Origin: Falsiroseomonas frigidaquae
GTDB taxonomy: Bacteria > Pseudomonadota > Alphaproteobacteria > Acetobacterales > Acetobacteraceae
DNA length: 64,000 nucleotides
Direction of reading: 5' to 3'
Assembly (NCBI RefSeq): GCF_012163145.1
Contig: NZ_JAAVTX010000006.1
Location: forward strand, 1 to 64,000
A program made the position numbers and the translations under genes. Positions 34,805 to 51,458 of the stretch are shown piece by piece. Positions within the stretch are counted from its first letter, which is position 1; every line of letters begins with the position of its first letter. Below the pieces are notes generated by a model. That model had not been told where the DNA came from. It did no database searches and saw only the letters and a program-made list of their open reading frames with translations.

Positions 34805-34967
34805 ACCGCTTCGTATCGGCCTCACCCGCGCCACATGGCGGGCATGGCACGGGCACAACAAGGCACGGCCGGCCACCAGGTCGCGCGTCCGGCTGCAGGA
34901 CCGGCCTCAAGGGGCCGCGAAGGCGCGAATCGCGCGAAACGATCCGCTGGCAGTTTGGGCGGCGGAT

Positions 34968-35026
34968 TAGGTTTGCCGTGAGGCCTCGAAAGGCCCGGGA
35001 TACCTGTCATCATGGCGGATGGAGTG
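34968..35026. repeat. Left attachment repeat (att)
   Basis: About 59 bp that match 51400-51458 with a few mismatches and one gap. They start TAGGTTTGCCG, share GCCTCGAAAGGCCCGG, and end with the exact 17-bp TCATGGCGGATGGAGTG. The last part copies the final bases of tRNA-Ser and nothing more of the tRNA, so this is the junction away from the intact tRNA gene. Confidence 0.85.
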
Positions 35027-35764: not shown

Positions 35765-35802
35765 TGCGCTAAAATAGTATCCGTGTTGCGATAACGGGGC
35801 AA
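35753..35802 (-). promoter_or_regulatory. Promoter and operator of the XRE gene
   Basis: On the minus strand -10 TACTAT (35774-35779) and a weak -35 TTGCCC (35797-35802) are 17 bp apart, so transcription would begin close to the ATG (35764) and give a leaderless or very short leader. The perfect inverted repeat ACTATTTT (35753-35760) and AAAATAGT (35771-35778) spans the start codon and touches the -10, as expected for autorepression. Confidence 0.65.
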
Positions 35803-35876
35803 GAGATTGCGGCCGAGCGAGGCGTTCGCACCGCCACCGCCCGGCCTGACCACAACGCGAGCTAGGAGAGCGCGCT

Positions 35877-36347: not shown

Positions 36348-36550
36348 GCGCCCCGACGCGCGCAGAGAGCGCACAGGACACGCCGCACGGCCCCAGCGCC
36401 GTTATCCTGCAATTCCCCAAGCCGCAGCGAGCCATCGCTCCCTTGCGGGCGAATGCACCCGACGCCGCGCGGCTGGTCGCCGCCTTCGCCTACCTGGCCG
36501 GCGTCTTGGCGAGCGTGCGGCGGGCCCGCCTGACTGGCGGTGCCGCATGA
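36344..36550 (+). CDS. Small hypothetical protein
   Basis: The product is 68 residues from a GTG that overlaps the previous stop (GTGA), and its own stop overlaps the next ATG (ATGA). The segment A-V-I-L-Q-F-P-K-P is followed by a short helical region. I do not recognise it. Tight coupling on both sides supports that it is real. Confidence 0.6.
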   Translation: MSAPTRAESAQDTPHGPSAVILQFPKPQRAIAPLRANAPDAARLVAAFAYLAGVLASVRRARLTGGAA

Positions 36551-36792
36551 ATAGTGCGCCATGGACCCCGCCACCTCCCGATCCCTACGCGCATTTCCGG
36601 CCGATTCCCTGCGTAAGTGCGGGCTGTCCGCTGGTGCAGGGGTGCGACCGCGCCATGTCGCGCGGGTTCCTCGCCGTCCCTTGTCCTGTGCTCGGCAGCC
36701 GCCGCGTGGCGCTTAAGCCGTTCCTGACCGTGCGGCGGCGCCGCGCCGGCGAGGGTCAGCCACCACCGCCAACGCGCACACAGGGCGACTAG
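36547..36792 (+). CDS. Small Cys/Pro-containing hypothetical protein
   Basis: The product is 81 residues. It starts at an ATGA overlap with the previous gene. It has Pro-rich ends and four cysteines (P-C-V-S-A-G-C-P-L-V-Q-G-C and V-P-C-P), which could bind a metal. It is not recognised. The end of the coupled trio is followed by about 220 bp before the integrase. Confidence 0.55.
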   Translation: MNSAPWTPPPPDPYAHFRPIPCVSAGCPLVQGCDRAMSRGFLAVPCPVLGSRRVALKPFLTVRRRRAGEGQPPPPTRTQGD

Positions 36793-37015
36793 GCGACCAG
36801 GTGCGCCAGCATTGCGGCGCGCGGGTGCCGTTCCCGGGCGCGTTATTCCGGCGCAAATTTCGGCTGTAGGCCTCAGCTAAGGCACCATTTCAGGGCCGCG
36901 CTGCATGCCTCAGCCGTCTCGGCTCGCTTCCTGCTGATTCCTTCGGTGCCGCTGGTCTTGGGAATCAGTTCAGGGGTAGCGTGCGCAACTGCAGCACCGG
37001 TAGGCACTTCCGACG

Positions 37016-38374
37016 ATGCCGAAATTGACCGTCGCGGTGGTCCGCGCCGCCAAGCACTCGGGCAAACCCACCAGCACCGGGAAGCTGCGGCCGGAGCGCC
37101 TGCCAGATGGTGGCGGGCTCGCCCTGCAGGTGACGCCGGATGGCGCGAAGAGCTGGATCCTCCGCTACACCCGAAGCTCCAAGGCGCGTGAGATGGGCCT
37201 CGGCCCGTGCGATCCCGACGGCCGTCGCGGCCTGAGCCTGGCCGATGCGCGGGATGCGGCCGAGGCCGCGCGTCGGACGCTCCGCGCTGGCGCCGATCCG
37301 ATCGAAGCGCGGGAGGCGGAGCGCGCGGCGCGCCAGCGGGCCGAGGCCGAGGCGAAGGCCGCCGCAGTGACCTTCCGCGACGCGGCGCGCGCCACTGTGG
37401 ATGCGAAGCAGGGCGGATGGTCCAGTCCGAAGCACGCCGCGCAATGGCTCGCGACGCTGGAACAGCACGCCCATCCGATCCTCGGCGACATGCCTGTTTC
37501 CGATGTCGGGACGCCGCACGTGTTGCAGGTGCTGCGCCCCATCTGGTCGCAGATCCCCGAAACTGCATCGCGCCTGCGCCAGCGCATCGAGGCCATTCTT
37601 GACCTGGCGCGGGTGCGCGGCTGGCGCGCCGGCGACAACCCGGCCCGCTGGCGCGGCCTACTTTCCGAAGAACTCCCGCCGCCGAGGCGCGTGAAGCGTG
37701 TGCAGCACCGCCCGGCCCTGCCGTGGCAGCGGCTGCCGGCCTTCATGGCTGCGCTGGCGCAGGTGGAGGGGCAGGGGGCCGCAGCGCTCCGCTTCGCCAT
37801 CCTTACCGCCGCTCGAACCGGCGAAGTGCGCGGCGCGACCTGGGGAGAGGTTGATCTGGATGCGGCGCTGTGGATCGTGCCAGGCGCCCGGATGAAGGGC
37901 CGTCGCACCCATCGCGTTCCGCTGTCGGCAGCCGCAGTGGACGTGCTTCGCGCGGCCCGTCCGGCTGACCCGAAGCGCGCCGATCTGATCTTCGGTGCCA
38001 CCGCCACCCGCGCCATCTCCGACATGACGCTCTCCGCGGTGGTGCGGCGGATGAACGAACCGGGGCCCGGCGCAGATCCGGACGCGCCGCCGGAGTGGTG
38101 CGACCAGGAGGGCCGGGCGGTGGTGCCCCATGGCTTCCGCAGCACCTTTCGCGATTGGGCGGGCGAGATCCGGCCGGAGGGGCGGGAGGTGGTGGAACGC
38201 GCGCTGGCCCATTCGGTGAGGGACAAGGTGGAGGCCGCCTATGCCCGATCGGACCTACTCGAGAAGCGCCGGCCGCTGATGGAAGCGTGGGGCGAATGGG
38301 CCGGCCGCCCCGCCGGGGGTGGTGAGCTGCGGAGCATTGTAGCAGCGCGCGCCAGGCGCCAGGCGCTTGGATAG
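37016..38374 (+). CDS. int: Tyrosine-type integrase (P4-like)
   Basis: The product is 452 residues with an N-terminal DUF4102-type arm-binding region (about 1-90), a core-binding domain (about 115-215) and a catalytic domain. The catalytic residues are complete: Arg267 (A-A-R-T-G-E), His372-x-x-Arg375 (P-H-G-F-R), His399 (A-H-S-V) and Tyr409 (A-A-Y-A-R-S). It should recombine the 17-bp core at tRNA-Ser. It lies at the end away from the intact tRNA gene. Confidence 0.93.
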   Translation: MPKLTVAVVRAAKHSGKPTSTGKLRPERLPDGGGLALQVTPDGAKSWILRYTRSSKAREMGLGPCDPDGRRGLSLADARDAAEAARRTLRAGADPIEAREAERAARQRAEAEAKAAAVTFRDAARATVDAKQGGWSSPKHAAQWLATLEQHAHPILGDMPVSDVGTPHVLQVLRPIWSQIPETASRLRQRIEAILDLARVRGWRAGDNPARWRGLLSEELPPPRRVKRVQHRPALPWQRLPAFMAALAQVEGQGAAALRFAILTAARTGEVRGATWGEVDLDAALWIVPGARMKGRRTHRVPLSAAAVDVLRAARPADPKRADLIFGATATRAISDMTLSAVVRRMNEPGPGADPDAPPEWCDQEGRAVVPHGFRSTFRDWAGEIRPEGREVVERALAHSVRDKVEAAYARSDLLEKRRPLMEAWGEWAGRPAGGGELRSIVAARARRQALG

Positions 38375-38440
38375 CGCGCTGCAGCCTTTGATCCCTGGGA
38401 CGCCGCTGGCGGAGCCGAGCCGCAGAACCAGTGCCATCTC

Positions 38441-38752
38441 GTGGTGCTGCTGGCTGAGGCGCGCATCGGCGCCGAGCTGACGGCGGCGCAGGCGCGGGGC
38501 GCGGTCGCCACGCAGGCCGAACATGGCAGGGGCGTCCAGGCGAGTGCCCGCGCCTCGGGCACTTGCGCAACCCTCGCCGAGATCGGCATTCCGAGCCGGC
38601 GCGTCAGCGAGATGAATAAGCTCGCGCAGGCGGGAGAACAGGCGATCCGTGAGGTTGCAGCCGCTGCAGGGCAGGGAAGGGGCGCATCTCGGCCGGAGGA
38701 GCACAGTCGGTACCTGCAGGCGCCGCAGCGCGGGCGGGCTGAGGGCCTGTAG
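38441..38752 (+). pseudogene. Degraded ParB/phage-regulator-like reading frame
   Basis: The reading from GTG 38441 (103 residues) resembles the region of small mobile-element proteins where A-E-x-R-x-G-E-L-L is followed by a charged loop and L-x-D-L-G-I-x-x-x-x-x-x-x-W/E: here A-E-A-R-I-G-A-E-L-T-A-A...T-L-A-E-I-G-I-P-S-R-R-V-S-E-M-N-K-L-A-Q-A. The start is uncertain and the C-terminus is not conserved, so it is probably a fragment. Confidence 0.4.
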
Positions 38753-38889
38753 CAGGGCTACCACCCGCACCTGGCTTCGACGGCTTAATCGGCGCGTCTC
38801 TCGTTGAGGTGCAAAGACTCGTCCCGTATGGTGTTTCAACGAAGCCGCGTCGCCGGCACCGGGAGAAGTACCGTGAGGGCAAGGCAGCA

Positions 38890-39594
38890 GTGAATGCCAT
38901 CAGCCAGTTCCTGGGGGTAGGCGTCTACGAGGTGACGCAGGCGGCCCGACTTGCCGAGGTGCCCCCGCGCCAAGCGCGCGCCTGGGTGAAGGGCTACGCT
39001 CGCCCCGCCAATGATGCCGGAAAGCCGGACCGTAAGCCGCTGCTGGGTTCGCGACTGTCGTCGGCGACTGCCGATCCTCTGGTGACGTTCGCCGACCTCA
39101 TAGAAATGAGATTCTGCGGCCATTTTCGTAAGGCTGGATTTTCATGGCCGCGTATTCTCAAGCACCTACCTGAGTTTCGCCGCGTGCTGCGTCAGGAGCA
39201 GCGCACCGGGCGCCTGACTTTCGAGAGCGATGGCGTGACGATCCTCGCCCAGGCGGTGGCGGCGGACGGCGTGAAGAAGGGCCTCGAGCTCGCATCGCGT
39301 CAGCATGTCATGGTGGACCTCCTGCAAAGAACCTTCCGGGAGGAGCTTAGCTTCTCCGCGGATGGCTTCATTGAAGCTTGGCGCCCTCGCGCGCAGTACC
39401 GGCACGTGCTGATCGACCCGAACCGCCAGTTTGGAGAGCCTATTGTTGAACCCGGTGTGCCGGCCGCGATTCTCGCGGAGGACCTGATCCGGCTCGGCGG
39501 AGACGCAGCCAAGGTGGCCCGCCGGTACAACGTCGAACCGGATGCCGTGATAGAAGCGCACCGCTTCCAGACCGACCTTCGGCCGGCGGCTTGA
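38890..39594 (+). CDS. DUF433-type antitoxin
   Basis: The product is 234 residues from GTG 38890 (GAGGGCAAGG upstream). An N-terminal MerR-like helix-turn-helix (about 8-35, V-T-Q-A-A-R-L-A-E-V-P-P-R-Q-A-R-A-W-V) precedes a linker and a C-terminal DUF433 segment (about 170-230, I-D-P-N-R-Q-F-G-E-P-I-V-E-P-G-V-P-A-A-I-L-A-E). DUF433 proteins are paired with PIN-like toxins. The stop overlaps the toxin start. The exact N-terminus is uncertain, with in-frame starts from 38809. Confidence 0.78.
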   Translation: MNAISQFLGVGVYEVTQAARLAEVPPRQARAWVKGYARPANDAGKPDRKPLLGSRLSSATADPLVTFADLIEMRFCGHFRKAGFSWPRILKHLPEFRRVLRQEQRTGRLTFESDGVTILAQAVAADGVKKGLELASRQHVMVDLLQRTFREELSFSADGFIEAWRPRAQYRHVLIDPNRQFGEPIVEPGVPAAILAEDLIRLGGDAAKVARRYNVEPDAVIEAHRFQTDLRPAA

Positions 39595-40055
39595 GGATCG
39601 TCATAGACGCATGCCTGCCGCCTTGGCTGGTGGAATGCTTGACGCCCATCGCTGAACCCTGCGGCTGTCGTGTCGAGCACGTGACGCGCCTTTATGGGCA
39701 GGGATGTAAGGACCCGGACTGGATTGGCCGGCTGACCAGCGAAGGCGGGGCGCTTTTCATCACCCACGACCGCCAGATGCGCCGCAGGCCTCTAGAGATC
39801 CAGGCGCTCCTGGCGTCGTCCTGCGTCGGAATCGTGCTGGCGCCCGGCTGGCAGGACGATGATGACCACGTGCTCGTGGCTCGCCTCCTGCTTCATTGGC
39901 CGTTGATCCTTGAGGCGGCAAAGGAGACGCCGCCGCAGCTGCGCGAGCTGGGATGGTCTTTGAAAATGAAGCCGCCGCGAAACTGGCGCGGCTGGGACAA
40001 GATCGCGGGCCGACTGACTCAACATCGCCCCCGGGGCCCTCACCCAAAAGAGTAG
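39591..40055 (+). CDS. PIN-like (DUF5615-type) toxin
   Basis: The product is 154 residues from a TTG that overlaps the antitoxin stop (TTGA). PIN-type acidic residues are in place: Asp6 in V-I-D-A-C-L-P, Asp41/Asp43 in C-K-D-P-D-W and Asp60 in F-I-T-H-D-R. Such proteins are predicted Mg-dependent ribonucleases neutralised by the preceding DUF433 partner. It may help keep the element in the host. The target RNA is unknown. Confidence 0.78.
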   Translation: MRIVIDACLPPWLVECLTPIAEPCGCRVEHVTRLYGQGCKDPDWIGRLTSEGGALFITHDRQMRRRPLEIQALLASSCVGIVLAPGWQDDDDHVLVARLLLHWPLILEAAKETPPQLRELGWSLKMKPPRNWRGWDKIAGRLTQHRPRGPHPKE

Positions 40056-40416
40056 CTGGTCTGACATCAAGGCCGTCAGTCTTCCACTGCCGCGGTGGAC
40101 GGTGGAGGAAGCGAACAAGTTCTGCCTCGCGCGCCGCCGCATGCCTCCATCTGGCACCGAAGCCCTTGCCACCTACCGCCGAAAAATGAAGGCTTCGGGT
40201 CGAGGCGCATGACCGTTGCCAGCTTGTGAATTGCACGCGCGCTTCAGCTATCCAGCGATCGCCCCAATTCCCTCCGCATCCCCCACGCAGTTCTGGCGCA
40301 GAAGGCGCCGGGGCGCGACGGGCCCGGGCCGGTTGGCACTCTCGGCGAAAGCCTGGCCGACCACATCAAGACCCGGCCGGTACCCCACTCGCAATGGGCG
40401 CCGCTCGGCCGCTCAA
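40056..40416. other. Intergenic stretch with no supported gene
   Basis: Between the toxin stop and the 3' end of the Arc-like gene I see no conserved reading frame, RNA or clear repeat. The short open frames on both strands have no start signal and no recognisable residues. Confidence 0.5.
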
Positions 40417-40812
40417 CTAATCGTTTAAATCATCGCGAGATGGTCGGCTTTTCAATAGTTCTTTCAGCTCATCGAGTTGCTTCGCGATCAGATTCATGGA
40501 TGCCGTAAGTCGGCGGCCATCCACGGCCGTGAAAGCTGGCAGGACGCTACTCGGGCTCACACGTCCACCAGCCTCCGCCTCTATCTGTGCCTGCAACAGG
40601 GCTCGCTCCGCCTCCGCCTGCAATTGGGCTCGCTCCATCTGTGCCTGCAATTGGGCCTGCAGTCGCTCGCGACGAGTCGCGCTGAACGACATTTGGAGCC
40701 GCCCAACGACCTCCGCGTTCAATGAACGTCCGTTCGCCTTGGCGGCGGCTTCCAGCTCTTCCTTCAGGGCCGGAGGCGCCCTGAACCTGATCTCAGGATC
40801 GTCGCGAGCCAT
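40417..40812 (-). CDS. Arc-like ribbon-helix-helix repressor
   Basis: The product is 131 residues. Residues 5-50 fit the Arc/Mnt family (I-R-F-R-A-P-P-A-L-K-E-E-L-E-A-A-A-K-A-N-G-R-S-L-N-A-E-V-V-G-R-L), followed by a Gln/Ala/Glu-rich coiled-coil stretch (about 47-82) built from L-Q-A-Q type repeats and a C-terminal helix. The extension would support oligomer formation. It is divergent from another ribbon-helix-helix gene across an operator-like gap. Confidence 0.87.
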   Translation of the reverse strand: MARDDPEIRFRAPPALKEELEAAAKANGRSLNAEVVGRLQMSFSATRRERLQAQLQAQMERAQLQAEAERALLQAQIEAEAGGRVSPSSVLPAFTAVDGRRLTASMNLIAKQLDELKELLKSRPSRDDLND

Positions 40813-40844
40813 TTCCGCACAATTTCCACACGAAATATGTTGAC

Positions 40845-40888
40845 ATGATACCCGCACCGTGGGGAATGTCACTCCACACCGTGTGGAG
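40845..40888. promoter_or_regulatory. Divergent promoter/operator between two RHH genes
   Basis: On the minus strand a good promoter reads -35 GTGACA (40867-40872), 16-bp spacer, -10 TATCAT (40845-40850), giving a leader of about 30 nt to the Arc-like gene. The perfect 17-bp palindrome CTCCACAC-C-GTGTGGAG (40872-40888) touches its -35. A TTGACA (40840-40845) on the plus strand could serve the other gene but lacks a good -10. Confidence 0.7.
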
Positions 40889-40897
40889 ACAAACTCT

Positions 40898-41104
40898 ATG
40901 GCAAACCCGACCGTCGGTCTCACCCTGCGCGTTGCGCCCGGCGTGCACGCCCGCCTGAAGTCGATCGCGAGGCGTGAACGACGCAGCCTGACAGGCCAAA
41001 TTCTGCACATCATCGAAGCCGCTGTCGCTTGCGAAAAAAACGAGAGCTTCGCGCCGAGCGCCGATGAATCGCTGTCGGCGGCGACGCCCGCGCAGCACGC
41101 GTAG
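40898..41104 (+). CDS. Small ribbon-helix-helix DNA-binding protein
   Basis: The product is 68 residues. V-G-L-T-L-R-V-A-P-G-V-H-A-R-L-K-S-I-A-R-R-E-R-R-S-L-T-G-Q-I-L-H fits an Arc-like RHH: a beta-strand, helix A and helix B. The tail is short and Ser/Ala rich. It is divergent from the Arc-like gene, so the pair may form a small two-regulator switch. Confidence 0.82.
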   Translation: MANPTVGLTLRVAPGVHARLKSIARRERRSLTGQILHIIEAAVACEKNESFAPSADESLSAATPAQHA

Positions 41105-41179
41105 CAGCGCCGCCGCCGAACACCGGCCGGCGCCCGCTGCAACGGGCAGCCCGGCCTGACACCACCGAAGGAGTCGGTC

Positions 41180-41806
41180 ATGTCTCGTGCAGCAACGTAT
41201 TCGCCCGCCACCGAATGTCCAGACGGATCGGCGCCGCATCCTGGCGACGATGCCGCGATATGCGAGGCCGGAGCGCAACCCGTGTCTCCGCCGCTCGTCA
41301 CCGCGGCGGAAACCACGATCGCCAAGGCTGCGCCTCCGCGCGCACGCCGGGCCGTCGCAGATCCCCGAACCCGTGCGCCGGGGCCCCGGGTTCGCGCTCC
41401 CGCCAGCAGGTGCGGCACAACGGCCCGCGCCGCACGGGCCGCTTCCGCTGCTGGGGTGCCGGCGCTGGCTGCAGACCACGCCGACGCAGGCATCCTTGTG
41501 GCATGTGCCGAGCACCAGGCGGCGCTGGTGGAAGTCAACCGCGATGGCGGCGACCTTGAGCCCGAAGACTGCCCGCTGACGCAGCGCTATCTGAAGGCGC
41601 TCGCGGCGGTGCGCCATGCGGTGGAGCCGCAGAGCATCGCCGGCATCCTGGCGCTGGCGCAATCCGTTGTGGCCGAGGCGCAGCAGGATCCACGTCACGC
41701 CGAAAGTGGGCACGACGTGCCCGCAGAATGGGGCGGCCATGCGCTCAACATCCTGAAGGCGCTGCTGCGCCTGGCCGGCCCGCCGTCGGCGCGACGCTCA
41801 ACATGA
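41180..41806 (+). CDS. Hypothetical protein (paralogue of 35877)
   Basis: The product is 208 residues with a GAAGGAG site. The first 95 residues are Ala/Pro/Arg rich and look disordered. The C-terminal half (A-A-L-V-E-V-N...E-D-C-P-L-T-Q-R-Y-L-K-A-L-A-A-V...S-I-A-G-I-L-A-L-A-Q-S-V-V) repeats the domain in the product of 35877. Its stop overlaps the next start. Function unknown. Confidence 0.7.
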   Translation: MSRAATYSPATECPDGSAPHPGDDAAICEAGAQPVSPPLVTAAETTIAKAAPPRARRAVADPRTRAPGPRVRAPASRCGTTARAARAASAAGVPALAADHADAGILVACAEHQAALVEVNRDGGDLEPEDCPLTQRYLKALAAVRHAVEPQSIAGILALAQSVVAEAQQDPRHAESGHDVPAEWGGHALNILKALLRLAGPPSARRST

Positions 41807-41949
41807 CGACGAACACTCAAGGCGCACCGGCGCCGAGCCGGCCGCGCGCGGAGGCTGTTCGACCAGCCATCCGGCACCGCTTCCGGCACCCGAAACACGC
41901 ATCCGCGCCGCGCCGCCGTGCCCGGCACACCGTGAAGGAATCCCGATGA
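41803..41949 (+). CDS. Small basic hypothetical protein
   Basis: The product is 48 residues, rich in Arg, Pro and Ala, fitted between neighbours by ATGA overlaps at both ends. It is not recognised. The overlaps suggest it is translated, though the sequence could also be a spacer with chance reading. Confidence 0.45.
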   Translation: MTTNTQGAPAPSRPRAEAVRPAIRHRFRHPKHASAPRRRARHTVKESR

Positions 41950-42164
41950 AGGTGAATTCGCCGCAGCCCGAAGCGGTGCCGTTGCCGAAGGCGCCCGCGC
42001 TATTCGGGTTGTCCCGCTCGACCCTTTACCGGCTGGCTGCGGAGGGGAAGGTGCGGCTCCTGAAGGTAGGGCGCGCGACGCTGGTGGACGCCGCCAGCGT
42101 GCGCGCCTTCCTTGCCGCAGCGCCAACCGTCGATGTCCGGCAGCGCCGTAGGCGGGCGGCGTGA
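41946..42164 (+). CDS. AlpA/excisionase-like DNA-binding protein
   Basis: The product is 72 residues with an AlpA/MerR-like winged helix: A-L-F-G-L-S-R-S-T-L-Y-R-L-A-A-E-G-K-V-R-L-L-K-V-G-R-A-T-L-V. Such proteins act as excisionases or integrase activators in P4-like elements. Its position among replication genes fits that, but a simple regulator is equally possible. Overlaps link it to both neighbours. Confidence 0.8.
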   Translation: MKVNSPQPEAVPLPKAPALFGLSRSTLYRLAAEGKVRLLKVGRATLVDAASVRAFLAAAPTVDVRQRRRRAA

Positions 42165-42487
42165 GCGCACGAAGCATGGCGGCTGGCCCTGCACTCGGTG
42201 CGGCGCCGGTGCCGCTGAACGCCGCGGCGCTGCCCTACCTCGAGGCGATTGCGATGGAGCTGCTGCCAGGCGCCCGCCGGCGCGGCGCGGAACTCCGAGC
42301 CGGATCGCGCGGCGAGGCCGGCGCAGATGTTCGCTTGTGCCTCATCACGGGGCGGTGGTGGCACCGCCACACCTGCCAGGAAGGCGAGGGGGCCGTGAGC
42401 CTGTTGGCGGTGCTGCGAAGCACCAGCGAAGCCGATGCGGCCGCGTGCGTGGCGTCCTGGATGGCTGAACGCGGGGTGCTGGGGTGA
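42161..42487 (+). CDS. Primase-N-like hypothetical protein
   Basis: The product is 108 residues from a GTG overlapping the previous stop (GTGA). The part from about 30 to 100 (L-L-P-G-A-R-R-R-G-A-E-L-R-A-G...G-R-W-W-H-R-H-T-C-Q-E-G-E-G-A-V-S-L) resembles the front of phage/plasmid primase-helicases, where N-G-R-x-x-G-x-E-W-x-x-G precedes a zinc-binding segment. No full primase is encoded. The call is tentative. Confidence 0.45.
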   Translation: MSARSMAAGPALGAAPVPLNAAALPYLEAIAMELLPGARRRGAELRAGSRGEAGADVRLCLITGRWWHRHTCQEGEGAVSLLAVLRSTSEADAAACVASWMAERGVLG

Positions 42488-42518
42488 AGGTGCTGCGGAC
42501 AGGGCGGAGCGCCACCCT

Positions 42519-43469
42519 ATGAGCAATTCGGCGCTCCGGTGGGCGCGCGCGTCGCGCGGCCTCACGCCTGCACAAAAATTCGTTCTCCTCGTCTTGGCCG
42601 ATGCAGCGCGGGAGCCGTCGAAGGACGGCGCGGGCCGGGAGGACGACTACACCTGTTGGATTGCCGCTGCCGCCATCGCGGAGGAGACCGGCCTTTCCGA
42701 CCGGGGGGTCCGCGATGCGCTGCACGACTTGATCGAGGCCGGCGCGATTCGCGGCGTCATGAGCAGGGGCGTGCACCCGCGCTGGACCCTCGTGGTGGAG
42801 AACAAAGGCACGACGTTCGCGAAAAAGCGGAACGGGGTTCCGGTTCAGAAGCGCAGCCACAGGCCGGCAAATCGGCCCCTGCCGTCGACCGAAGATCGGA
42901 ACCCGGTTCCGGACGAGGATCGGAACCTCGTTCCGAACCAAAATCGGAACAGCATTCCTTTTGAACCGGAACCGGATTCCGTGAAATCGGAACCACGTTC
43001 CCTGAGATCGGAACCGGGTTCCCATAAACCCTCTAGAACCCTTACTGAACCCTCATCTAACCCAAAGGCGCGCGAGGCGCGCGCTGCGGTGGTGGTGGAC
43101 CTGCCGGCCTGGCTGTCTCCCGAGCACTGGGACGCCTGGTGCCGGCACCGTCGAGGCAAGCACTGGACCCAGGAAGCCGCGGTGCTTTCCATCCGCGAGT
43201 TGGGCAAGCATCGCGAAGACGGCCACGACCCAGCCGACGTGATCGCCCACTCAATCGCCAGCGGGTACCGCGGCCTCTTCGCCCCCAACCGCCGCGCTGC
43301 AGCGGCAGGCAGCGGCGCATCGGGGCTTAACCAATCACGTTACCGGAACAAACAGGCAACGCCGGCGAGCGCCTTCACCGCCATGAGGGAAATGGCCGAG
43401 GCCAGTTCTCCGGCCGGCGGTGGCGAGCGGCCGCGGCACGAGATCGATGGGGACTTCGAGGCCAGATGA
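42519..43469 (+). CDS. Replication-initiator-like protein (lambda O-like layout)
   Basis: The product is 316 residues: an N-terminal winged helix-turn-helix (about 10-100, L-T-P-A-Q-K-F-V-L-L-V-L-A...A-A-I-A-E-E-T-G-L-S-D-R-G-V-R), a linker (about 104-170) encoded by repeated dyads, and a C-terminal helical part. The dyads are read in two frames (R-N-P-V-P, R-N-L-V-P, R-N-S-I-P and then E-P-E-P-D-S, E-P-R-S-L), so they matter as DNA. By analogy with lambda O the protein would bind them to start replication. The ATG at 42519 gives the helix-turn-helix start. Confidence 0.78.
   Translation: MSNSALRWARASRGLTPAQKFVLLVLADAAREPSKDGAGREDDYTCWIAAAAIAEETGLSDRGVRDALHDLIEAGAIRGVMSRGVHPRWTLVVENKGTTFAKKRNGVPVQKRSHRPANRPLPSTEDRNPVPDEDRNLVPNQNRNSIPFEPEPDSVKSEPRSLRSEPGSHKPSRTLTEPSSNPKAREARAAVVVDLPAWLSPEHWDAWCRHRRGKHWTQEAAVLSIRELGKHREDGHDPADVIAHSIASGYRGLFAPNRRAAAAGSGASGLNQSRYRNKQATPASAFTAMREMAEASSPAGGGERPRHEIDGDFEAR
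42829..43064. repeat. Iteron array and AT-richer repeats: candidate replication origin
   Basis: Seven dyads GGAAC-N3-(G/A)TTCC start at 42829, 42898, 42922, 42946, 42968, 42989 and 43010. After the first, spacings are 24, 24, 22, 21 and 21 bp, about two helical turns. Four AACCC(T/A) repeats follow at 43027, 43037, 43048 and 43059 (10-11 bp apart) in an AT-richer stretch. Iterons inside the initiator gene followed by an unwinding region is the lambda ori plan. Confidence 0.8.
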
Positions 43470-44230
43470 ACCAGATCGCACCCATCCGCCCGGGCGCCAG
43501 TACCGAACCGCTACCGGAGGCGCCGCCGCGGATTGCTCCCATGTCGCAGGCAGCGGAGGAAGCCGTTTCGCTAGCTGTATCAGCGCGCGAGGCCAGGCCC
43601 GACAACGATGCGCCGCGCCTCGCTGCTGGCCAGGTCGCGGTGGTCCAGGAGGAGATCTCGAAACGCCTGGCGGCGCTCGAGCGAGCCCTCTCCGGCGGCT
43701 GCGACGATCCGACCATCAATTCGTGGCTGATGATTTGCGCCGGGATGATTGGCCACCCGCGCGACCCGGACGAAATGCGGATACGCTTCACCGCGCTACG
43801 CGCCGCGCTGCGCGAGCTCCCCCGGCGGTGCTTCACGCTTCGATCCGCCAAGGCGGTCGCCGCAGCCCATAAATGGTTTCCGGGCCTTCACGAGATGCTC
43901 GCCATCCTGACGCCCGAAACCGATGACCTGCGCCGCGAGCGCGCCAGGCTGCATGCCGCCATGAACACCTTCCGCGCCGGCCCGGCCGAGCCGCCCGCCA
44001 CGCCGGCAGAGCGGGAGGCGATGGCAGCCGCGGCACGCGCGCGCGTGGCGGAGCTGCTGGCCAGCTCGCGCGAAGACAGGGCGCGGCCCGGTGGCGATCG
44101 GCCGCTGCATTATTCTCCGGAAGCTCTTTTGGCCCACTATCAGCGCACCGCTTCCGGTGGTGGCCCGTTCGCCAAAATCGCGGCGTTCCGCGTGCAGCAT
44201 TTGCGCCGACAACTCGGCAAAGATGAGTGA
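43466..44230 (+). CDS. Hypothetical replication-associated protein
   Basis: The product is 254 residues, starting at an ATGA overlap with the initiator-like gene. The central part (I-N-S-W-L-M-I-C-A-G-M-I-G...C-F-T-L-R-S-A-K-A-V-A-A-A-H-K-W-F-P-G-L-H-E-M-L) is helical and basic. In lambda-like modules the gene after O is the helicase loader P, so a loader role is suggested by position and size only. I see no Walker motifs. Confidence 0.6.
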   Translation: MNQIAPIRPGASTEPLPEAPPRIAPMSQAAEEAVSLAVSAREARPDNDAPRLAAGQVAVVQEEISKRLAALERALSGGCDDPTINSWLMICAGMIGHPRDPDEMRIRFTALRAALRELPRRCFTLRSAKAVAAAHKWFPGLHEMLAILTPETDDLRRERARLHAAMNTFRAGPAEPPATPAEREAMAAAARARVAELLASSREDRARPGGDRPLHYSPEALLAHYQRTASGGGPFAKIAAFRVQHLRRQLGKDE

Positions 44231-44630
44231 CGAAGCGGCAGCCGCCGGCGACGTGGCGCCACCGCCGGGATCGGCCCTGGCGCGAGCGCTGGCGGCGCTG
44301 GCGGCCGCACTGGCCGGTGGTGACGACGCGCAGCGGGCAGCGGTGGAGGCGATGCTCCCGAAGTGGGTATCGCGCGGCGCACGCCTGGATCGACGCGATG
44401 CGGCGATCCGCGACGCGCTTTCTGGCCACCTCCCACGATCGGTGGCGGCGAAGGCCCTGGAGGCCGAGCTCAGGCGCGCGTGCACGGTGGCTTCGCCAGG
44501 CCAAGGTGATGCGCGTCGAAAACTTGTAGCTGAGATCCTCGATCTCAACGCCGGCCGCCCGCTGGCTTGGCGCCAGCTTCTGAACATCGCGGCTGCGAAC
44601 CGCACACCGCGTTGCAATAATCTCCCGTAG
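44223..44630 (+). CDS. Hypothetical protein
   Basis: The product is 135 residues, overlapping the previous gene by 8 bp. It is Ala-rich and helical, with a basic central part (K-W-V-S-R-G-A-R-L-D-R-R-D-A-A-I-R) and I-L-D-L-N-A-G-R-P-L-A near the end. Not recognised. It closes the replication-type cluster before the tape-measure gene. Confidence 0.55.
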   Translation: MSDEAAAAGDVAPPPGSALARALAALAAALAGGDDAQRAAVEAMLPKWVSRGARLDRRDAAIRDALSGHLPRSVAAKALEAELRRACTVASPGQGDARRKLVAEILDLNAGRPLAWRQLLNIAAANRTPRCNNLP

Positions 44631-44662
44631 AAATTGCAACAGATGGCGCCGAAACTGTAACC

Positions 44663-47600
44663 ATGAGCGGCAGTCGCAACATCACCTTGAGTCTCAGCGT
44701 GGCCGGGGCGGAAGAAACGCTCCGCAAGCTGCGCGAGCTCGGGCCGGCCGGCGAGGGGGTTCTGAAGCGGCTGGAGGATGCGGCGCAGAAGGCGGCCGGA
44801 CGGGGCGGCCAGACTGGGCTCAGCACGGTATCTGCCGCGGCGACCGAGGCCACCCGGGCGCTGGAAGGCATGGGCAGCCGGCTTGGTCCAATCGGCGGGA
44901 TCCTGTCGTCCATCGGCGTTGGTGGCGCCGCGGCGGCGGCGGCGTTGGCCGGCATCGGTGTTGCCGGGACAGCGGTGGCCCGCGCCGGCGACCAGATGGA
45001 GGCGACGCTGGGTCGGTTGGCCAGCGCGACCGGATCCGTATCGGCAGCGGCCGATGTCTACGACAAGCTCTATCGGATCAGCCTGCAGACCGGCGTCAGC
45101 ATCGGCGACAGCGCGGGGGCGTTCCAGCGCTTCGCCATCGCAGGGCGCGAGATCGGGGCGACGAACGAGCAGGTCCTCAAGCTGGTCCAGACCATCCAGC
45201 AGGCCGGCCGCATCGCCGGCGCATCCACCCAGGAGACACAGTCCGCGACGCAGCAGCTGGGCCAGGCGCTGGCTTCCGGAGTTCTGCAGGGCGACGAGTT
45301 GCGCTCCATCCTGGAGAACATGCCGAACCTGGCGGTGGCGCTGGCGCGCGAACTGGGTGTCGGCGTGGGCGAACTGCGCCGGATGGGCAGCGAAGGCCAG
45401 CTCACGGCCGATCGCGTCATGCCGGCGCTCCTTCGCTCCGCCGAAGGCATCAACGAGGAGTTCGGCAAGCTGCCGCCGACCATGGAACGCGGGTTTCAGG
45501 CGCTGGGCACAGCGACGACCCGTTTCCTGGCCGACCTCGACCAGGCCCTGGGCCTATCGCAGGGGATCGCGCGCACGCTGACCGGCGCGGCCAGCGCCAT
45601 CGACGCGGTGCGCCGCGGGCTGCTGCCCACCGCCGGCGAGCGAGCCACCAATGATGTGGCAGGATCCGAGGCTCGCGTCTCGGAACTCCGCCGCCAGCTT
45701 GAGCAGTTCGAGCCTGGGCTGAGGTCGCAGCAGCAGCGCGGCAGCATCCGGTCCGAACTGGTGGGCGTCGCCGCTTCGCAGACCGGATCGGATCGCCGAG
45801 CCGAACTTCAGGCGCAGCTCGAGCAGGAGCTGGAAGTGCTGGCCACGGCGCAGGTGCGCGCCCTGGCAATCCAGCAGGAAGGGGACCTCCGCGCCTTCAA
45901 CGAGGCGGTCGAGGCCGGGGAGCGGCGTACCGCCTCCAGGCGCCAGCAACTCGACCAAGGCCTGGAGGCGTTGCGTTCGTCCTATGACAAGGAACGCACG
46001 ATCCGTGCGACGCACGAGCGCGCGGTCTCCGCCATCAACGAGCAGCTGGAGCGTGGCGCGATCAACCAGGCTGAGGCTCAGCGCCTCACCGCCGCGGCCG
46101 ACCGCGAGCGCGCTGATGCGCTGAAGTCGCTGGAGGAGCGGGGGCGAGGCGCGGCCAGGGCGCTGCAGGACGTCAACCGCTCCATCTACGAGGCATCCTC
46201 CGACCCGAACCAGACCGTTTTCCCGGTCAGCGCGGTTCAGCCTTCGCTGGACCGGATGACGGCGGCGCGGCGCGCCGCAGATGAGCGGGCGCAGGAGCAG
46301 CGCAGCCAGAACGAGCAGCGGTTCCTCGAGCGCCAGGCGCAGGACAACAAGCGGACCACCGACGACATCGTGCGGTACGGCGCCGAGGCGTTTGCCGACA
46401 TGTACGACCAGAACGGCCGCGGCTTCGCTGGCCTGATGGACAGCATGTGGGCGACGTTCAGGCGGACCATTGCGAGGATGGCTGCCGAGGCGCTGATCCG
46501 ACCGATCGTGCAGCCCATCGTGGCCGCGTTCGCAGGTGGCGGTGGCGGTGCTGGTCTATCCGCCTTGGGCGGCGTCTCTGCCGGCGGTGGTGGCGCCGCA
46601 GGCGGCATGCTCGGCAGCCTGTCGAACCTCTACTCGCTCGGCAGCAGCGCATACAGCGCCTACACGGGCGCAAGCGCGACTGGAATCGCGGCCGGCATCA
46701 ACAGCCTCGGCGTCAGCAGCGGTCTGTTCGGTAACGGCGTCGCGGTCTCGACAGGCGCGAACGGGATGCTACTCGGCGGCGGAGCTGCCTCGAGCGGTGC
46801 GGTCTCCCAGGCGGGGTTGTTCGGTTCCACCACCGCCTCAGCGGCGCTCGGCGGCATCGGCCTGGGATTTGCAGGCGGCTCGCTGCTGGGCGGGTACCTG
46901 GCGGGGGACAGCGAGGCGCGCCAGACCAACGCCCAGATCGGCGCCGGCGCCGGGTCCATTGCTGGCTTCGCCATCGGGACCATGCTCGGCGGCCCGGTTC
47001 TCGGCGCGATCCTCGGCGGCCTGATGGGCGGCGGCGCCGGCGGCCTGATCGGCCCGGGCCCCAAGACCAACGCCTATGGCTACACGCTGACGAGCCAGAA
47101 CGGCATGTTCGGTCTCGACCCGCTTTCCATGACCGGTGACGGCCTGGAAGGCGAGGAGGCTTATGCCCAGGCGCAGCAGTACCTGGCCCAGGCCAATGCC
47201 CGCCTGTACGGGGCCGGCATTTCGGTCAACGACAACCGGCGCGCCATCACGGCCGGCGGCGTGCGGCCTACCGACGGCAGCCAGGACGCGAGCTTTGCTG
47301 AGGCGATCAACCGCTTCAGCTTCTCGTCGCAGAACGAGAATGTCCAGACCGCGCTGAACACCATCACAGGCGGCGTGGATGCGGCGGTCGCGTCCGCGGA
47401 GTTCGTCACCGGCACATACGAAGCAATGCTTCGGCTCCGCGAGCCTGTCTCGGCGTTCGACGCCGCGGTCCAGCAGATCACGGGCACCTTTGGTCCAGCG
47501 ATCGAGCAGGCCCGCAACTATGGGCTGGCCACGGCCGAGCTGGAGGCGATCCAGGCTGAGCAGGTCGCCAAGGTGATCGCGGACCGCAACGCGGCGTACC

Positions 47601-48301
47601 AGGCGCTGAACGACAACATCACGGTCGAGTTCTTCCGTGCCATCGGCCGAGACGTCGAGGCGGCGCTGCTCGAATTCGACATGCAGGCGGCCGCAAACCT
47701 GCGCCAGACCCGCGACGCGCTGGAGAGCATGGCGGCGTCCAGCGAGGATACGGCGACGCAGCTTGCCCGTCTGGAAGAGGTGCAGGCCCTCCAGCGCGCG
47801 AAGATCCAGGCCGACGCATCGGCGCCGCCCTCCACTGGGGCTACCGTGGACACAGCGGGCGACCGCGCCGCCCGAGGGCTCATGGAACAGCTGACCTTCG
47901 GTGGGCTTGGAGGCTTGTCCCCGGAGGCTCAGACCACCGCAGCAAGGCAGGCTCTGGAGGCCGCGCGGCAGGCAGTCATGGCCGATCCGTCGAGCGCCAA
48001 CGTCACGGAGTTCAGCCGGGTCGCGCAATCGACCCTTGGCGTGATCCGCGGCATCGAGGGCACCACCAGCAGCTTCGGCTCTCTCACCGGCCTGGTTTCC
48101 GACACCATCCGTACCGTGGCGCCGAACGCTGACGTCGCGAACCTCGGCAGCGTCGTCGACGCCACGGTCCAGGGCGCGAATGTCGTGGCCGATGCAGTCC
48201 TGAGCAGCGGCGGCGCGACCAAGGCGGTGCTGAGTGAATTGCTGATCGGCTTCACCCGCTTGTCGGCGCAGGTCGCCGCGCTTGCCGCGCGAGCCGCATA
48301 A
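44663..48301 (+). CDS. Phage tail tape-measure protein
   Basis: The product is 1212 residues. An N-terminal tape-measure domain (about 85-280) carries G-V-S-I-G-D-S-A-G-A-F-Q-R-F and L-A-S-G-V-L-Q-G-D-E-L-R-S-I-L-E-N-M-P typical of TMP_3. Long helical and coiled stretches follow, then two Gly-rich hydrophobic parts (about 620-680 and 730-800) and a helical end. It would set tail length and help DNA passage. It is intact, although most structural genes are missing. Confidence 0.92.
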   Translation: MSGSRNITLSLSVAGAEETLRKLRELGPAGEGVLKRLEDAAQKAAGRGGQTGLSTVSAAATEATRALEGMGSRLGPIGGILSSIGVGGAAAAAALAGIGVAGTAVARAGDQMEATLGRLASATGSVSAAADVYDKLYRISLQTGVSIGDSAGAFQRFAIAGREIGATNEQVLKLVQTIQQAGRIAGASTQETQSATQQLGQALASGVLQGDELRSILENMPNLAVALARELGVGVGELRRMGSEGQLTADRVMPALLRSAEGINEEFGKLPPTMERGFQALGTATTRFLADLDQALGLSQGIARTLTGAASAIDAVRRGLLPTAGERATNDVAGSEARVSELRRQLEQFEPGLRSQQQRGSIRSELVGVAASQTGSDRRAELQAQLEQELEVLATAQVRALAIQQEGDLRAFNEAVEAGERRTASRRQQLDQGLEALRSSYDKERTIRATHERAVSAINEQLERGAINQAEAQRLTAAADRERADALKSLEERGRGAARALQDVNRSIYEASSDPNQTVFPVSAVQPSLDRMTAARRAADERAQEQRSQNEQRFLERQAQDNKRTTDDIVRYGAEAFADMYDQNGRGFAGLMDSMWATFRRTIARMAAEALIRPIVQPIVAAFAGGGGGAGLSALGGVSAGGGGAAGGMLGSLSNLYSLGSSAYSAYTGASATGIAAGINSLGVSSGLFGNGVAVSTGANGMLLGGGAASSGAVSQAGLFGSTTASAALGGIGLGFAGGSLLGGYLAGDSEARQTNAQIGAGAGSIAGFAIGTMLGGPVLGAILGGLMGGGAGGLIGPGPKTNAYGYTLTSQNGMFGLDPLSMTGDGLEGEEAYAQAQQYLAQANARLYGAGISVNDNRRAITAGGVRPTDGSQDASFAEAINRFSFSSQNENVQTALNTITGGVDAAVASAEFVTGTYEAMLRLREPVSAFDAAVQQITGTFGPAIEQARNYGLATAELEAIQAEQVAKVIADRNAAYQALNDNITVEFFRAIGRDVEAALLEFDMQAAANLRQTRDALESMAASSEDTATQLARLEEVQALQRAKIQADASAPPSTGATVDTAGDRAARGLMEQLTFGGLGGLSPEAQTTAARQALEAARQAVMADPSSANVTEFSRVAQSTLGVIRGIEGTTSSFGSLTGLVSDTIRTVAPNADVANLGSVVDATVQGANVVADAVLSSGGATKAVLSELLIGFTRLSAQVAALAARAA

Positions 48302-48403
48302 CATGGCGGCCGTGGCGTACCCGCTGCAACATCGACGTCAGGGGACATTGAAGCTGCCGAGGCAGATCAAGGCGCTCGTGATGTGTTGGAAGGAGCTGGC
48401 CCG

Positions 48404-48772
48404 ATGACGCCGGACGAAGCCGCCTTGCTCGGTGCGCAATGCGATGCGATCCGCGGCATTATCGTCAGGGCGCTTTCCCAACTTGAGCCTTCACGCGTCG
48501 AGCTGAGTCGACTCCTTGAGCTGATCCCGGACAAGGAATGCCCGGGCGCCCTGCGCATCCGCCTGATGCTCATGGAGCTTCGCGCCGTAGCCGCGGAGAC
48601 CATCGTGCAGGGCGTGGCGCAGCATGCCGCCGCCCTCAGCTCGGCAGGCACGGCAGCCGCCAGCAAGTCAGCCGGATCGGGCGCGCAGGTTCTGCCATTC
48701 CGTCCCTTCCTCGTGCCGGCCTCTGTAACCCCCAGCCAGTCCGAGATATCGGAAACGAGGCCCGGCGCGTGA
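48404..48772 (+). CDS. Hypothetical tail-module protein
   Basis: The product is 122 residues with GGAAGGAGC upstream. Helical N-terminus (A-L-L-G-A-Q-C-D-A-I-R-G-I-I-V-R-A-L) and a Ser/Ala/Pro-rich end. Not recognised. It follows the tape-measure gene and overlaps the next start. Confidence 0.55.
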   Translation: MTPDEAALLGAQCDAIRGIIVRALSQLEPSRVELSRLLELIPDKECPGALRIRLMLMELRAVAAETIVQGVAQHAAALSSAGTAAASKSAGSGAQVLPFRPFLVPASVTPSQSEISETRPGA

Positions 48773-49176
48773 TGCAGGTAATTTCCGCCGCGCAGCACCA
48801 GAGGCCAGTTGCGCGCCTGGTCGTGGTGCGGAACGGCAGGCCGTTGCCACATGGCGAGTTGAGTGCATTGCGCCGACCCAGGCAGGTGGTCACCGTCGCC
48901 GATGACGTCACGCGCTGCGTAGGGCCGTCCGGCTTCAGTGGCGCACTCGATCTTGTGCACTGGGCCAGCGCGGTGGTGGTGACGACGCACATTGGCACCG
49001 ATGCCGACCGCGCGCTGATTGTAGCGCAGGCGCGCCGGCGCCCGCGGGTCCTGGTCGTGATGACGCGCCCGGAACAGGTGCAGTCCTGGCACGACTACGT
49101 AAACGGCCGGTTTCCGCGCAAGCCGATCACCCTCCGCACCTGCTCCGCAGTGGGTGCCGATTCAGCGAAGACGTGA
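48772..49176 (+). CDS. Hypothetical tail-module protein
   Basis: The product is 134 residues; ATG 48772 or GTG 48769 (GTGA overlap) starts it. Alternating strands (A-R-L-V-V-V-R-N-G-R-P, V-V-T-V-A-D-D-V-T) suggest a small beta-rich protein. Not recognised. Confidence 0.55.
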   Translation: MQVISAAQHQRPVARLVVVRNGRPLPHGELSALRRPRQVVTVADDVTRCVGPSGFSGALDLVHWASAVVVTTHIGTDADRALIVAQARRRPRVLVVMTRPEQVQSWHDYVNGRFPRKPITLRTCSAVGADSAKT

Positions 49177-49191
49177 GCGAAGGAGAAGGTG

Positions 49192-49488
49192 ATGCTCGAC
49201 GTAGACCGGCTGGCCACGGAAATGGTCAATGGCTGTCAGATACTGCTCGAGAAGCAGATGGGCCCGCTTCGCGAGCAGATGGCCGCCGCCGAGGCACGCA
49301 TGACCAGATTAGAAGAAGACCAACTCCGGTTCTCGGGTACGTGGCAGGCATCCGCGAAGTATCGACGTGGCGACCTGGTGACCCATCAGGGAGGACTCTG
49401 GTTCTGCTGCGCCGCCAGCGAAGGCACGAGGCCCGGCGAGGCGTCCGGCGGCTGGCAGTTGGCCGTCAAGCGCGGCGCAGCCGAATGA
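49192..49488 (+). CDS. Phage protein with a carbohydrate-binding-like C-terminus
   Basis: The product is 98 residues. An N-terminal coiled coil (about 15-48) is followed by F-S-G-T-W-Q-A-S-A-K-Y-R-R-G-D-L-V-T-H-Q-G-G-L-W-F, the W...Y..G..V...G..W pattern of small chitin-binding-like modules on phage tail or baseplate proteins. The ATG at 49192 follows AGGAGAAGG. Its stop overlaps the ClpP-like gene start (ATGA). Confidence 0.7.
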   Translation: MLDVDRLATEMVNGCQILLEKQMGPLREQMAAAEARMTRLEEDQLRFSGTWQASAKYRRGDLVTHQGGLWFCCAASEGTRPGEASGGWQLAVKRGAAE

Positions 49489-50552
49489 CCGATACGGCGG
49501 CAATGATCGCGCAAGTCAGGCAGCGGTCGAAATCCGCAGCCTTGGATCATCTCCCCGCCCTGCAGCGTTGGAGCGCCACAACGGTAGGCATCCTGCACAA
49601 CGGGCTGCAAACAGTCGTGCAGGCATACAGCGGGGATCGAATTTCCGACACCTACGCAAGCCCCTCGGTCCGCTCCCTGCTGGGTTGCCTGCTGGATGCG
49701 GCCGACCTTCAAGCTGAAATCGCTCAGCGGATCGACGCGGAGACGAGCGCGCTTGCCGCGGCTTCGGTTGGCCTCATTGCGGCGGAGGCCGATTGCCGAC
49801 GCAGCCGGCGCTCCGAGACCGCCTCGTGGCCAGACGAGCAGCAAAACGAAGCGGCGTTGCAGGCCTACTTCACGGCCCTGCCGCAGTTGCCCGCACAAGC
49901 CGCGATGCCGGGCACTCTCGGCGGCTTGGTTGAGGCAGCCGATGAGGCGGCGCGCTCGCTGCTGCGCCGCCGCCTCAACAGCCGCCTGGTCGCCCGCCAA
50001 GCCCCAGCCGAGCCGCCCATTCTGGTGCGGTTGCATGGCGGCATCGGCCCCGCCGCGTTCTCCGCCGCGACGATTGAGGCGATCCTTGATCGTCATCCAG
50101 GCCGAGCCATCGTGCTTGACATCGATTCACTGGGCGGTTCGGTGGCCGAGGAAGACGGCATCTGCGCCGCCATTGCGGCCCACCCGGCAAGGGTTGAAGC
50201 CTACGTTTCGGGACGCTGCGCAAGCGCCGCCACGCTCGTGCTCCTCGCGTGCTATCCGCGCTCCTGCGCTGCAGAGGCCACGTTCATGGTCCATCATCCA
50301 GCGACGGAGACCGCGCTGGTAGGCGCGCGCATGGATGCCGCGTGGCTACGACGGCAGGCGGAGCGCCTTGACGATGGTCAGGCGCACGCGCTGATCACCT
50401 ACGCGACCGAAACCCAGACGCCTCCGGCGATGCTGCGCCTATGGCAGCGGCGCGGCGAGGACTTTTGCTTCAGCGCCGTGGAAGCGAGGCGTTGGGGCTG
50501 GGTTCAGCGCATTGGGGATCGTCCGCACGCGATCGAGGAGCCAACTGCATGA
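49485..50552 (+). CDS. ClpP-like serine protease (phage type)
   Basis: The product is 355 residues. The N-terminal 170 residues are helical and unrecognised. The C-terminal part is ClpP-like: V-L-D-I-D-S-L-G-G-S-V (210-220), nucleophile Ser247 in S-G-R-C-A-S-A-A-T and His270 or His271 in M-V-H-H-P. In phages such proteases mature head proteins and usually sit beside portal genes, none of which is here. The substrate is therefore an open question. Confidence 0.82.
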   Translation: MTDTAAMIAQVRQRSKSAALDHLPALQRWSATTVGILHNGLQTVVQAYSGDRISDTYASPSVRSLLGCLLDAADLQAEIAQRIDAETSALAAASVGLIAAEADCRRSRRSETASWPDEQQNEAALQAYFTALPQLPAQAAMPGTLGGLVEAADEAARSLLRRRLNSRLVARQAPAEPPILVRLHGGIGPAAFSAATIEAILDRHPGRAIVLDIDSLGGSVAEEDGICAAIAAHPARVEAYVSGRCASAATLVLLACYPRSCAAEATFMVHHPATETALVGARMDAAWLRRQAERLDDGQAHALITYATETQTPPAMLRLWQRRGEDFCFSAVEARRWGWVQRIGDRPHAIEEPTA

Positions 50553-51380: not shown

Positions 51381-51402
51381 TTGGGGGTAGGGGGAGGGGT
51401 AG
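51381..51402. repeat. Paired decamers, right end
   Basis: TTGGGGGTAG at 51381-51390 and GGAGGGGTAG at 51393-51402, again 12 bp apart, just inside the right attachment repeat. They match the pair at 35189-35210. Confidence 0.5.
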
Positions 51403-51458
51403 GTTTGCCGCGATGCCTCGAAAGGCCCGGATTTCCTGGCGTCATGGCGGATGGAGTG
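51400..51458. repeat. Right attachment repeat (att) at tRNA-Ser
   Basis: This is the copy of the left repeat (34968-35026) that runs into the intact tRNA-Ser. The exact 17-bp core is 51442-51458; it holds the CCA-end, the discriminator, the 3' acceptor strand and the first T-stem bases of the tRNA. Confidence 0.85.

Follow-up and report, generated by a model that had tools for sequence, protein, structure and literature searches.

A probable lambda-type replication origin inside the O-like initiator gene of an integrated phage-like element of Falsiroseomonas frigidaquae

Why should a short inverted repeat recur seven times inside one protein-coding gene, and go on recurring after the reading frame it occupies has changed? 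The question is raised by gene 42519..43469 of Falsiroseomonas frigidaquae, which lies in a stretch of 64,000 nucleotides (contig NZ_JAAVTX010000006.1, positions 1 to 64,000) that we analysed as a whole and call the window. First-pass annotation had placed seven GGAAC-N3-(G/A)TTCC dyads in this gene, with units 2-4 in one frame and units 5-7 in another owing to a 22-bp step between units 4 and 5, and had described their spacing as about two helical turns. All of this was borne out. The matches to GGAACNNN(G/A)TTCC are exact (n=7), start at 42829, 42898, 42922, 42946, 42968, 42989 and 43010, and follow one another at steps of 69, 24, 24, 22, 21 and 21 bp, that is, at about two turns once the 69-bp gap is passed; unit 1 shares the frame of units 2-4.

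42829..42841, gene frame 1: dyad 1, GGAACGGGGTTCC
42898..42910, gene frame 1: dyad 2, GGAACCCGGTTCC
42922..42934, gene frame 1: dyad 3, GGAACCTCGTTCC
42946..42958, gene frame 1: dyad 4, GGAACAGCATTCC
42968..42980, gene frame 2: dyad 5, GGAACCGGATTCC
42989..43001, gene frame 2: dyad 6, GGAACCACGTTCC
43010..43022, gene frame 2: dyad 7, GGAACCGGGTTCC

The 64-kb window has no exact forward match to GGAAC-N3-RTTCC beyond these seven. With one mismatch allowed there are 19 matches on both strands, against a mean of 4.88 and a largest value of 14 in 100 shuffles, and dinucleotide shuffles of the gene (3,000) contain at most one exact dyad each. Redraws that keep the protein of gene 42519..43469, with codons drawn at the frequencies found in seven other window ORFs, have no dyad in 8,591 of 10,000 cases and three at most. 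The 24 codons with a dyad base at the third position are also rarer than expected (mean usage 0.340 vs 0.465), and usage as low was reached in 19 of 10,000 draws for the same amino acids. Seven dyads where the redraws give no more than three, together with the low usage of the dyad codons, indicate that the protein does not explain the dyads.

The protein itself is of interest, and the parts of the gene that concern us are these.

42519..43469, plus strand: O-like replication initiator gene, 316 aa, identified by PHROG 678 and hhalign
42519..42794, plus strand: N-terminal winged-helix domain, residues 1-92, proposed iteron-binding domain
42699..42737, plus strand: recognition helix, residues 61-73, with R65 (helix H61-73 in the model)
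43119..43259, plus strand: C-terminal helical domain, residues 201-247 (AlphaFold2 helices 201-210, 218-233 and 238-247)

Residues 8-296 match PHROG 678, 'replication initiation O-like', with E 1.7e-29, and hhalign of the family of the window protein with four lambda-type O proteins gives a probability of 98.3 and E 1.3e-14 over 224 aligned columns. A tblastn search with the window protein matched parts of 34 phage records, including O of Gifsy-1/2 and mEpX1, and it is the C-terminal helical domain that resembles these and other O proteins. Pfam HTH_36 is matched at E 2.9e-5 with 24.2 bits, under the cut-off of 25. Up to E 0.1, the Pfam search returned neither Phage_rep_O (PF04492) nor a RepA_N domain for the window protein; PF04492 is matched by one of 28 members of its family vs all four lambda-type proteins. 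On these profile comparisons the window protein is a remote relative of lambda O. Among 28 O-like proteins, two match the DnaT DNA-binding domain (PF17948) and five match DnaD_N. The gene is present as a single copy in its own genome. The dyads are positioned 310-503 bp into the coding sequence, with the winged-helix domain encoded upstream of the array and the helical domain downstream, and the same layout is found in many phage O genes. The linker over the array has low confidence in the AlphaFold2 model; it is probably disordered, its sequence following the needs of the DNA.

Is the arrangement of dyads peculiar to this gene? A dyad-pair DNA scan of viral contigs matched 56 contigs, in 38 of which an iterated HMM detected an O-like ORF. 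Applied to the ORFs of all loci, the HMM detected O-like ORFs in 45 loci, made up of the 38 viral ones, 3 of the 119 genome loci listed, the window's own copy and loci from protein searches; L005, which is the same place as L002, was dropped before counting. Removal of redundancy at 80% identity left 40 O-like genes, the window included, and 39 of these have at least two dyads with at most one mismatch. Frame changes of the kind seen in the window are a natural means of telling DNA-level selection from selection on the protein. They are the rule here, since the dyads use more than one frame in 31 of the 39 genes (the window among them) and all three frames in 13; a single frame holds all dyads in eight, including genome locus G047. 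Dyad steps of up to 60 bp (n=122) are most often 22 bp (44), 21 bp (27) or 23 bp (13), with 13 longer steps at 32-35 bp, 4 at 44-46 bp, and others at 16-17, 27, 30, 38-42, 48 and 55 bp. Peptide-level repeats would give multiples of three; 49 of the 122 steps are divisible by three. The dyad-pair pattern forced at least one step of 18-28 bp per contig, and the 26 steps above 28 bp, which the pattern did not select, have a phase coherence of 0.42 to 0.46 at periods of 10.5 to 12 bp. Helical phasing of the dyads is visible in them, not sharp.

These counts bear on the proposal that tandem duplication of a linker motif (R-N-x-V-P) at the peptide level made the repeats, which would then have no DNA function. 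Units 2-4, in a single frame at 24-bp steps, and the eight genes with one shared dyad frame are what such duplication might leave behind, but 31 of 39 genes change frame, the window gene with them, synonymous redraws lose the dyads, and the linker is modelled at low confidence, as disorder would give. A peptide-level explanation is hardly credible on this evidence. The earlier argument that protein selection would not keep one DNA motif across a frame change stands, given both the ceiling of three dyads in the redraws and the multi-frame majority among the dyad genes.

Relatives of the window gene are rare, and the dyads do not accompany all of them. The window protein found no relative in the viral contigs by protein search, and its search of 100 whole genomes, its own included, gave matches in three: its own copy, G047, with six dyads in a single frame, and G052, whose O-like protein has the peptide repeat NRHHMP/NRHHVP and is encoded by a gene without GGAAC dyad. 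Protein searches with the relatives L007 and L002 returned 23 loci, two of them known dyad contigs and the other 21 without GGAAC dyad, so the dyads mark one branch of the family and not the whole of it. Matches to the 21 dyad-less loci are mostly to the C-terminal half, with L308 and L311 matching in the N-terminal part too; other repeats occur in L308, L310, L315 and L316, and none were seen in some other dyad-less loci. We saw no case of the linker peptide being kept without the dyads, in searches that found no close homologue of the window gene for comparison.

Dyad pairs are also found away from O-like ORFs, in 18 of the viral contigs, six of which were inspected. Four GGAAC dyads of L008 (12933-13013, steps of 23, 23 and 22 bp) fall in several frames of a 259-aa ORF that has no PHROG match and no O-like HMM match, and L024, L026, L033, L043 and L053 match tail, exonuclease or other families. 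Eight viral contigs (L009-L012, L016, L028, L037 and L044) each have two and no more GGAACNNNGTTCC dyads, with a step of 25 bp. In most of these contigs only a short ORF, or none, spans the pair, and this is perhaps another recurrent element. Hoylesella loescheii (several contigs) and Prevotella denticola have several separate GGAAC-pair loci each, mostly with a 22-bp step (L064, L089, L111, L116, L129, L136 and others), perhaps representing a dispersed repeat.

The sequence of the iterons is correlated with a residue of the recognition helix. The column of R65 has R or K in 38 of 39 GGAAC genes vs Q in 26 of 33 TGCA-iteron genes. Its agreement with iteron class, 68 of 72, is the best among the columns compared, with 34 of 106 genes having other iterons left out (R, 11, and Q, 10, are mixed there) and 3 of 109 N-terminal parts dropped as too short; it is also the top column by mutual information. 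Independent events behind this link are few (three supported pairs; p 0.25 by a sign test). Presumably RNA copied from any perfect DNA dyad can pair as well, and the dyads might accordingly be read as hairpins in the O messenger, with 5-bp stems and 3-nt loops; neither the step classes of 21-24 and 32-35 bp nor the link to a recognition-helix residue has an evident reason at the RNA level, however, and we consider hairpins very improbable.

Immediately behind the dyads lies a second element, for which four AACCC repeats at 10-11 bp in an AT-richer stretch had been claimed.

43027..43064, plus strand: four AACC(C) direct repeats, proposed unwinding or single-strand element

This description agrees with what we find. 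The repeats start at 43027, 43037, 43048 and 43059 (steps 10, 11 and 11), occupy three frames, and lie in a 38-bp stretch of 47% GC, compared with 66% for the gene and 69.8% for the window; the stretch is AT-richer, not AT-rich. A chain of four AACC at steps of 9-13 bp appeared in none of 3,000 shuffles (seven reached three) and in 2 of 3,000 protein-preserving redraws, and by the latter count the AACC array alone is weaker than the dyads and partly explained by the peptide.

Related repeats recur behind the iterons of other O-type genes. The 39 dyad genes were selected without reference to AACCRTCA. The 70 bp past the last dyad, 2,708 bp over all of these genes, contain 22 copies of it, and the remaining 26,228 bp not one; the opposite strand has none, and shuffles have a mean of 0.09 and a maximum of 1. 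At least one exact copy is found in 11 of these genes and at least two in 6, and the AACC core occurs at least once in the 70 bp past the last dyad in 28 and is absent there in 11. Several low-GC dyad genes have a plain AT-rich stretch instead of AACC repeats, and L051, L052 and L055 are GC-rich yet without AACC behind the dyads. The four repeats of the window include no exact AACCRTCA and so fall outside a class defined by two or more copies; they resemble it in place, strand, step and AACC core, and may be a divergent copy of it.

A three-copy AACCRTCA pattern, derived from the dyad genes, was then scanned over viral contigs regardless of gene content. Among the matches listed, the array is inside an O-like ORF in 91 of 120 contigs, on the coding strand in 91 of 91. 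We inspected by eye the 29 listed contigs whose array is not within an O-like ORF: in about eight the array seems to be at a contig end that retains the C-terminal half of an O-like protein, two are beside an O-like match with a broken frame, and most others are simple or other coding repeats. Seventy representatives (set A, 70% identity cut) have arrays in more than one frame in 64 cases, with steps of 10 (41), 11 (67) and 12 bp (32) dominating where the pattern allowed 9-14. The 170 bp before the array contain a 7-mer repeated at least three times in 66 of 69 genes, compared with 4 of 69 when the opening 170 bp of the same ORFs are taken, one of the 70 set-A genes being left out as too near a contig end. 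Steps of these 7-mers include 22 (81), 17 (41), 21 (34) and 23 bp (25), and the iteron units themselves differ widely in sequence. A scan with ACAAAAGACA, a pattern taken from lambda-type O genes, gave a parallel result, with arrays inside O-like ORFs in 111 of 120 viral contigs among the matches listed, on the coding strand in 111 of 111, and likewise behind many different iterons. Copies of AACCRTCA in fifteen O-like genes from named phages or plasmids number two or three in 5 genes, one in 2 and zero in 8. Pseudomonas phi2, MD8, TC7, Stenotrophomonas CUB19 and Bordetella PHB09 have iterons followed by two or three coding-strand AACCRTCA, the iterons being of CCCGCA/TGCACCC or AAAGGGTGCA types and not the GGAAC dyads of the window; a Massilia plasmid and Sphingopyxis VSN-002 have a single copy.

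Which part of the protein goes with the second repeat? N-terminal parts of AACCRTCA genes (67 of the 70 representatives) and of ACAAAAGACA genes (109 of 111, with redundancy kept) form two clusters without a cross match at E 1e-4. Between the C-terminal parts, in contrast, there are 408 cross matches, and AACCRTCA and ACAAAAGACA genes mix in clusters of 39+24, 3+24, 8+18 and 1+6, other clusters being of one kind. Twenty of the 120 listed AACCRTCA arrays lie in ORFs that also match the lambda-type HMM (the first HMM had all 20), and of the 12 of these ORFs that are listed, 11 match the lambda-type HMM from position 153, i.e., in the C-terminal part, and L194 from 75. By these sequence comparisons the type of repeat goes with the N-terminal half of O, and not with the C-terminal half or the iteron sequence. 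Since C-terminal parts are common to both repeat classes, it is unlikely that the C-terminal half reads the repeat specifically, and the N-terminal half, or a host factor going with it, would fit that role better. The association could also come from simple linkage in the 5' part of the gene, and selection would be needed to keep the second repeat while the proteins diverge.

These observations suggest a general scheme, in which O-type origins would have two parts: a variable iteron array that provides specificity, and a conserved strand-specific repeat, AACCRTCA or ACAAAAGACA according to N-terminal family, that would be a sequence-read opening element, present also in GC-rich genomes without an AT-rich tract. 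A single winged helix would recognise both, contacting the iterons with its recognition helix and the opened strand with a conserved face. We offer this as a tentative proposal that may well hold, short of calling it probable. The literature matches listed include no publication of AACCRTCA or ACAAAAGACA repeats in phage origins, nor of such a two-part rule.

Palindromes that would suit a winged-helix dimer resemble operators, and transcription factors, CRP for one, make up many of the VIA-align rows obtained with the N-terminal domain. The dyads could on these grounds be operators for O itself, or for a repressor of the O operon, and no part of an origin. Their position 310-503 bp into the O-like coding sequence, which matches the place of the lambda iterons, and the arrays of regular step followed in many genes by a second repeat make a purely regulatory role improbable; operator and origin functions of the dyads can coexist.

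Comparison with known origins favours replication. The lambda origin lies in gene O, where inverted repeats are occupied by dimers of O and 40 bp of adjacent A+T-rich DNA open, according to a passage of PMC5043065; a passage of PMC7466680 adds that O of lambda, P27 and 933W bind single strands of the A+T-rich tract. The lambda record has four annotated iterons in O, at the place that corresponds to the window dyads. Lambda and the window share dyad-symmetric iterons at steps of about two turns in the linker region of an initiator gene, and remote protein homology over most of the length. They differ in the iteron sequence, in the N-terminal domain, which in the window is HTH_36-like and without PF04492 match, and in what follows the iterons: an AT-rich tract in lambda, and in the window AACC-type repeats with a 10-11 bp step that are 47% GC and not A-rich. 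Lambda has P after O, whereas the next gene of the window is no recognised P. As judged from sequence, the window has a lambda-like anatomy that is new in the iteron sequence, the N-terminal branch and the second element. A 4.6-kb Klebsiella plasmid record (L330, NZ_CP080357.1) has CII-family, O-like, ATP-binding and ren genes and looks like a natural lambda-dv-type miniplasmid.

Plasmid initiators offer further parallels. The RK2 oriV is not known to lie inside the initiator gene. It has iterons plus neighbouring direct repeats of which TrfA, the initiator, binds one strand, specific binding to one strand of their repeats being described for TrfA and plasmid Rep proteins in a passage of PMC4081077, which also says that repeats had been noted in the lambda AT-rich tract; the initiator there is a plasmid Rep protein, and the 13-mers are AT-rich, unlike the window stretch. 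The Rep of pSK41 binds boxes within its own gene, and the part of the protein encoded there is dispensable (PMC5703833). As proposed for the window, the N-terminal domain of this RepA_N plasmid initiator binds boxes central in its own gene (PMC5703833); the pSK41 initiator belongs to another protein family, and the window protein has no RepA_N match.

The genomic surroundings indicate what kind of replicon such an origin would serve.

34967..35026: left imperfect direct repeat, candidate attachment site
37016..38374, plus strand: tyrosine integrase of the element (Pfam Phage_integrase and Phage_int_M; PHROG 1 integrase, E 6.8e-47)
43466..44230, plus strand: gene adjoining O, in the position of lambda P, all-helical protein, homologues beside O
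51399..51458: right imperfect direct repeat, candidate attachment site, overlapping the 3' end of tRNA-Ser(TGA)
51445-51534, minus strand: tRNA-Ser(TGA)

Among the ORFs of loci L001-L300, homologues of 43466..44230 occur only beside O-like genes (L002, L035, L036 and L060). Its product has an all-helical model with pLDDT 72.8, no Pfam match past the cut-off, no PHROG match and no PDB match at E 0.001, and no recognisable P-like or DnaC-like helicase-loader relative was found; that it is a helicase loader would be a guess. The candidate element, 34967-51458, with about 16.4 kb between the repeats, contains the integrase, the O-like gene, a tape-measure gene and a head-protease domain. No capsid family was found in the element ORFs tested, and the sole packaging match among them is a weak one of a small HTH protein (41946-42164) to a terminase small subunit family, E 0.0036. 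Genus searches for an empty site matched chiefly tRNA genes. The element may be a satellite-like element or a decayed prophage.

In the latter case the array could be a recognisable relic of an origin that no longer fires, a reading compatible with a lambda-type origin. The short distance between the candidate attachment sites, the lack of a capsid family and the weak packaging match among the ORFs tested in spite of the tape-measure and head-protease genes, and the divergence of the second element would all fit decay. The O-like gene is nevertheless a full-length open frame with seven exact dyads, the gene after it likewise has an open frame and has homologues next to O in other loci, and the small size suits a phage satellite too; we regard a dead origin as rather unlikely, while giving it real weight.

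It is thus very probable that the dyads and the repeats behind them form the origin from which an integrated phage-like element replicates, and that this origin lies within the O-like initiator gene of the element in the manner of lambda. The candidate origin named by first-pass annotation has gained the PHROG 678 and hhalign matches of its gene, the frame changes in 31 of 39 dyad genes, and a second repeat that recurs behind iterons. On this reading, O dimers would bind the dyads through the winged helix, with R65 in the recognition helix; the dyads, two turns apart, would lie approximately on one face of the DNA helix; the complex would open the AACC stretch; and one strand of it, either the coding strand with the repeats or its complement, may be held by O while the host helicase is loaded.

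To our knowledge, most temperate phage origins have not been mapped. If the two-part rule is true, a short DNA pattern would locate the origin, the initiator and the strand polarity in phage genomes without experiments. The shared second repeat also raises a directly testable question, that is, whether O-type initiators melt DNA through recognition of one strand, as has been shown for DnaA and plasmid Rep proteins.
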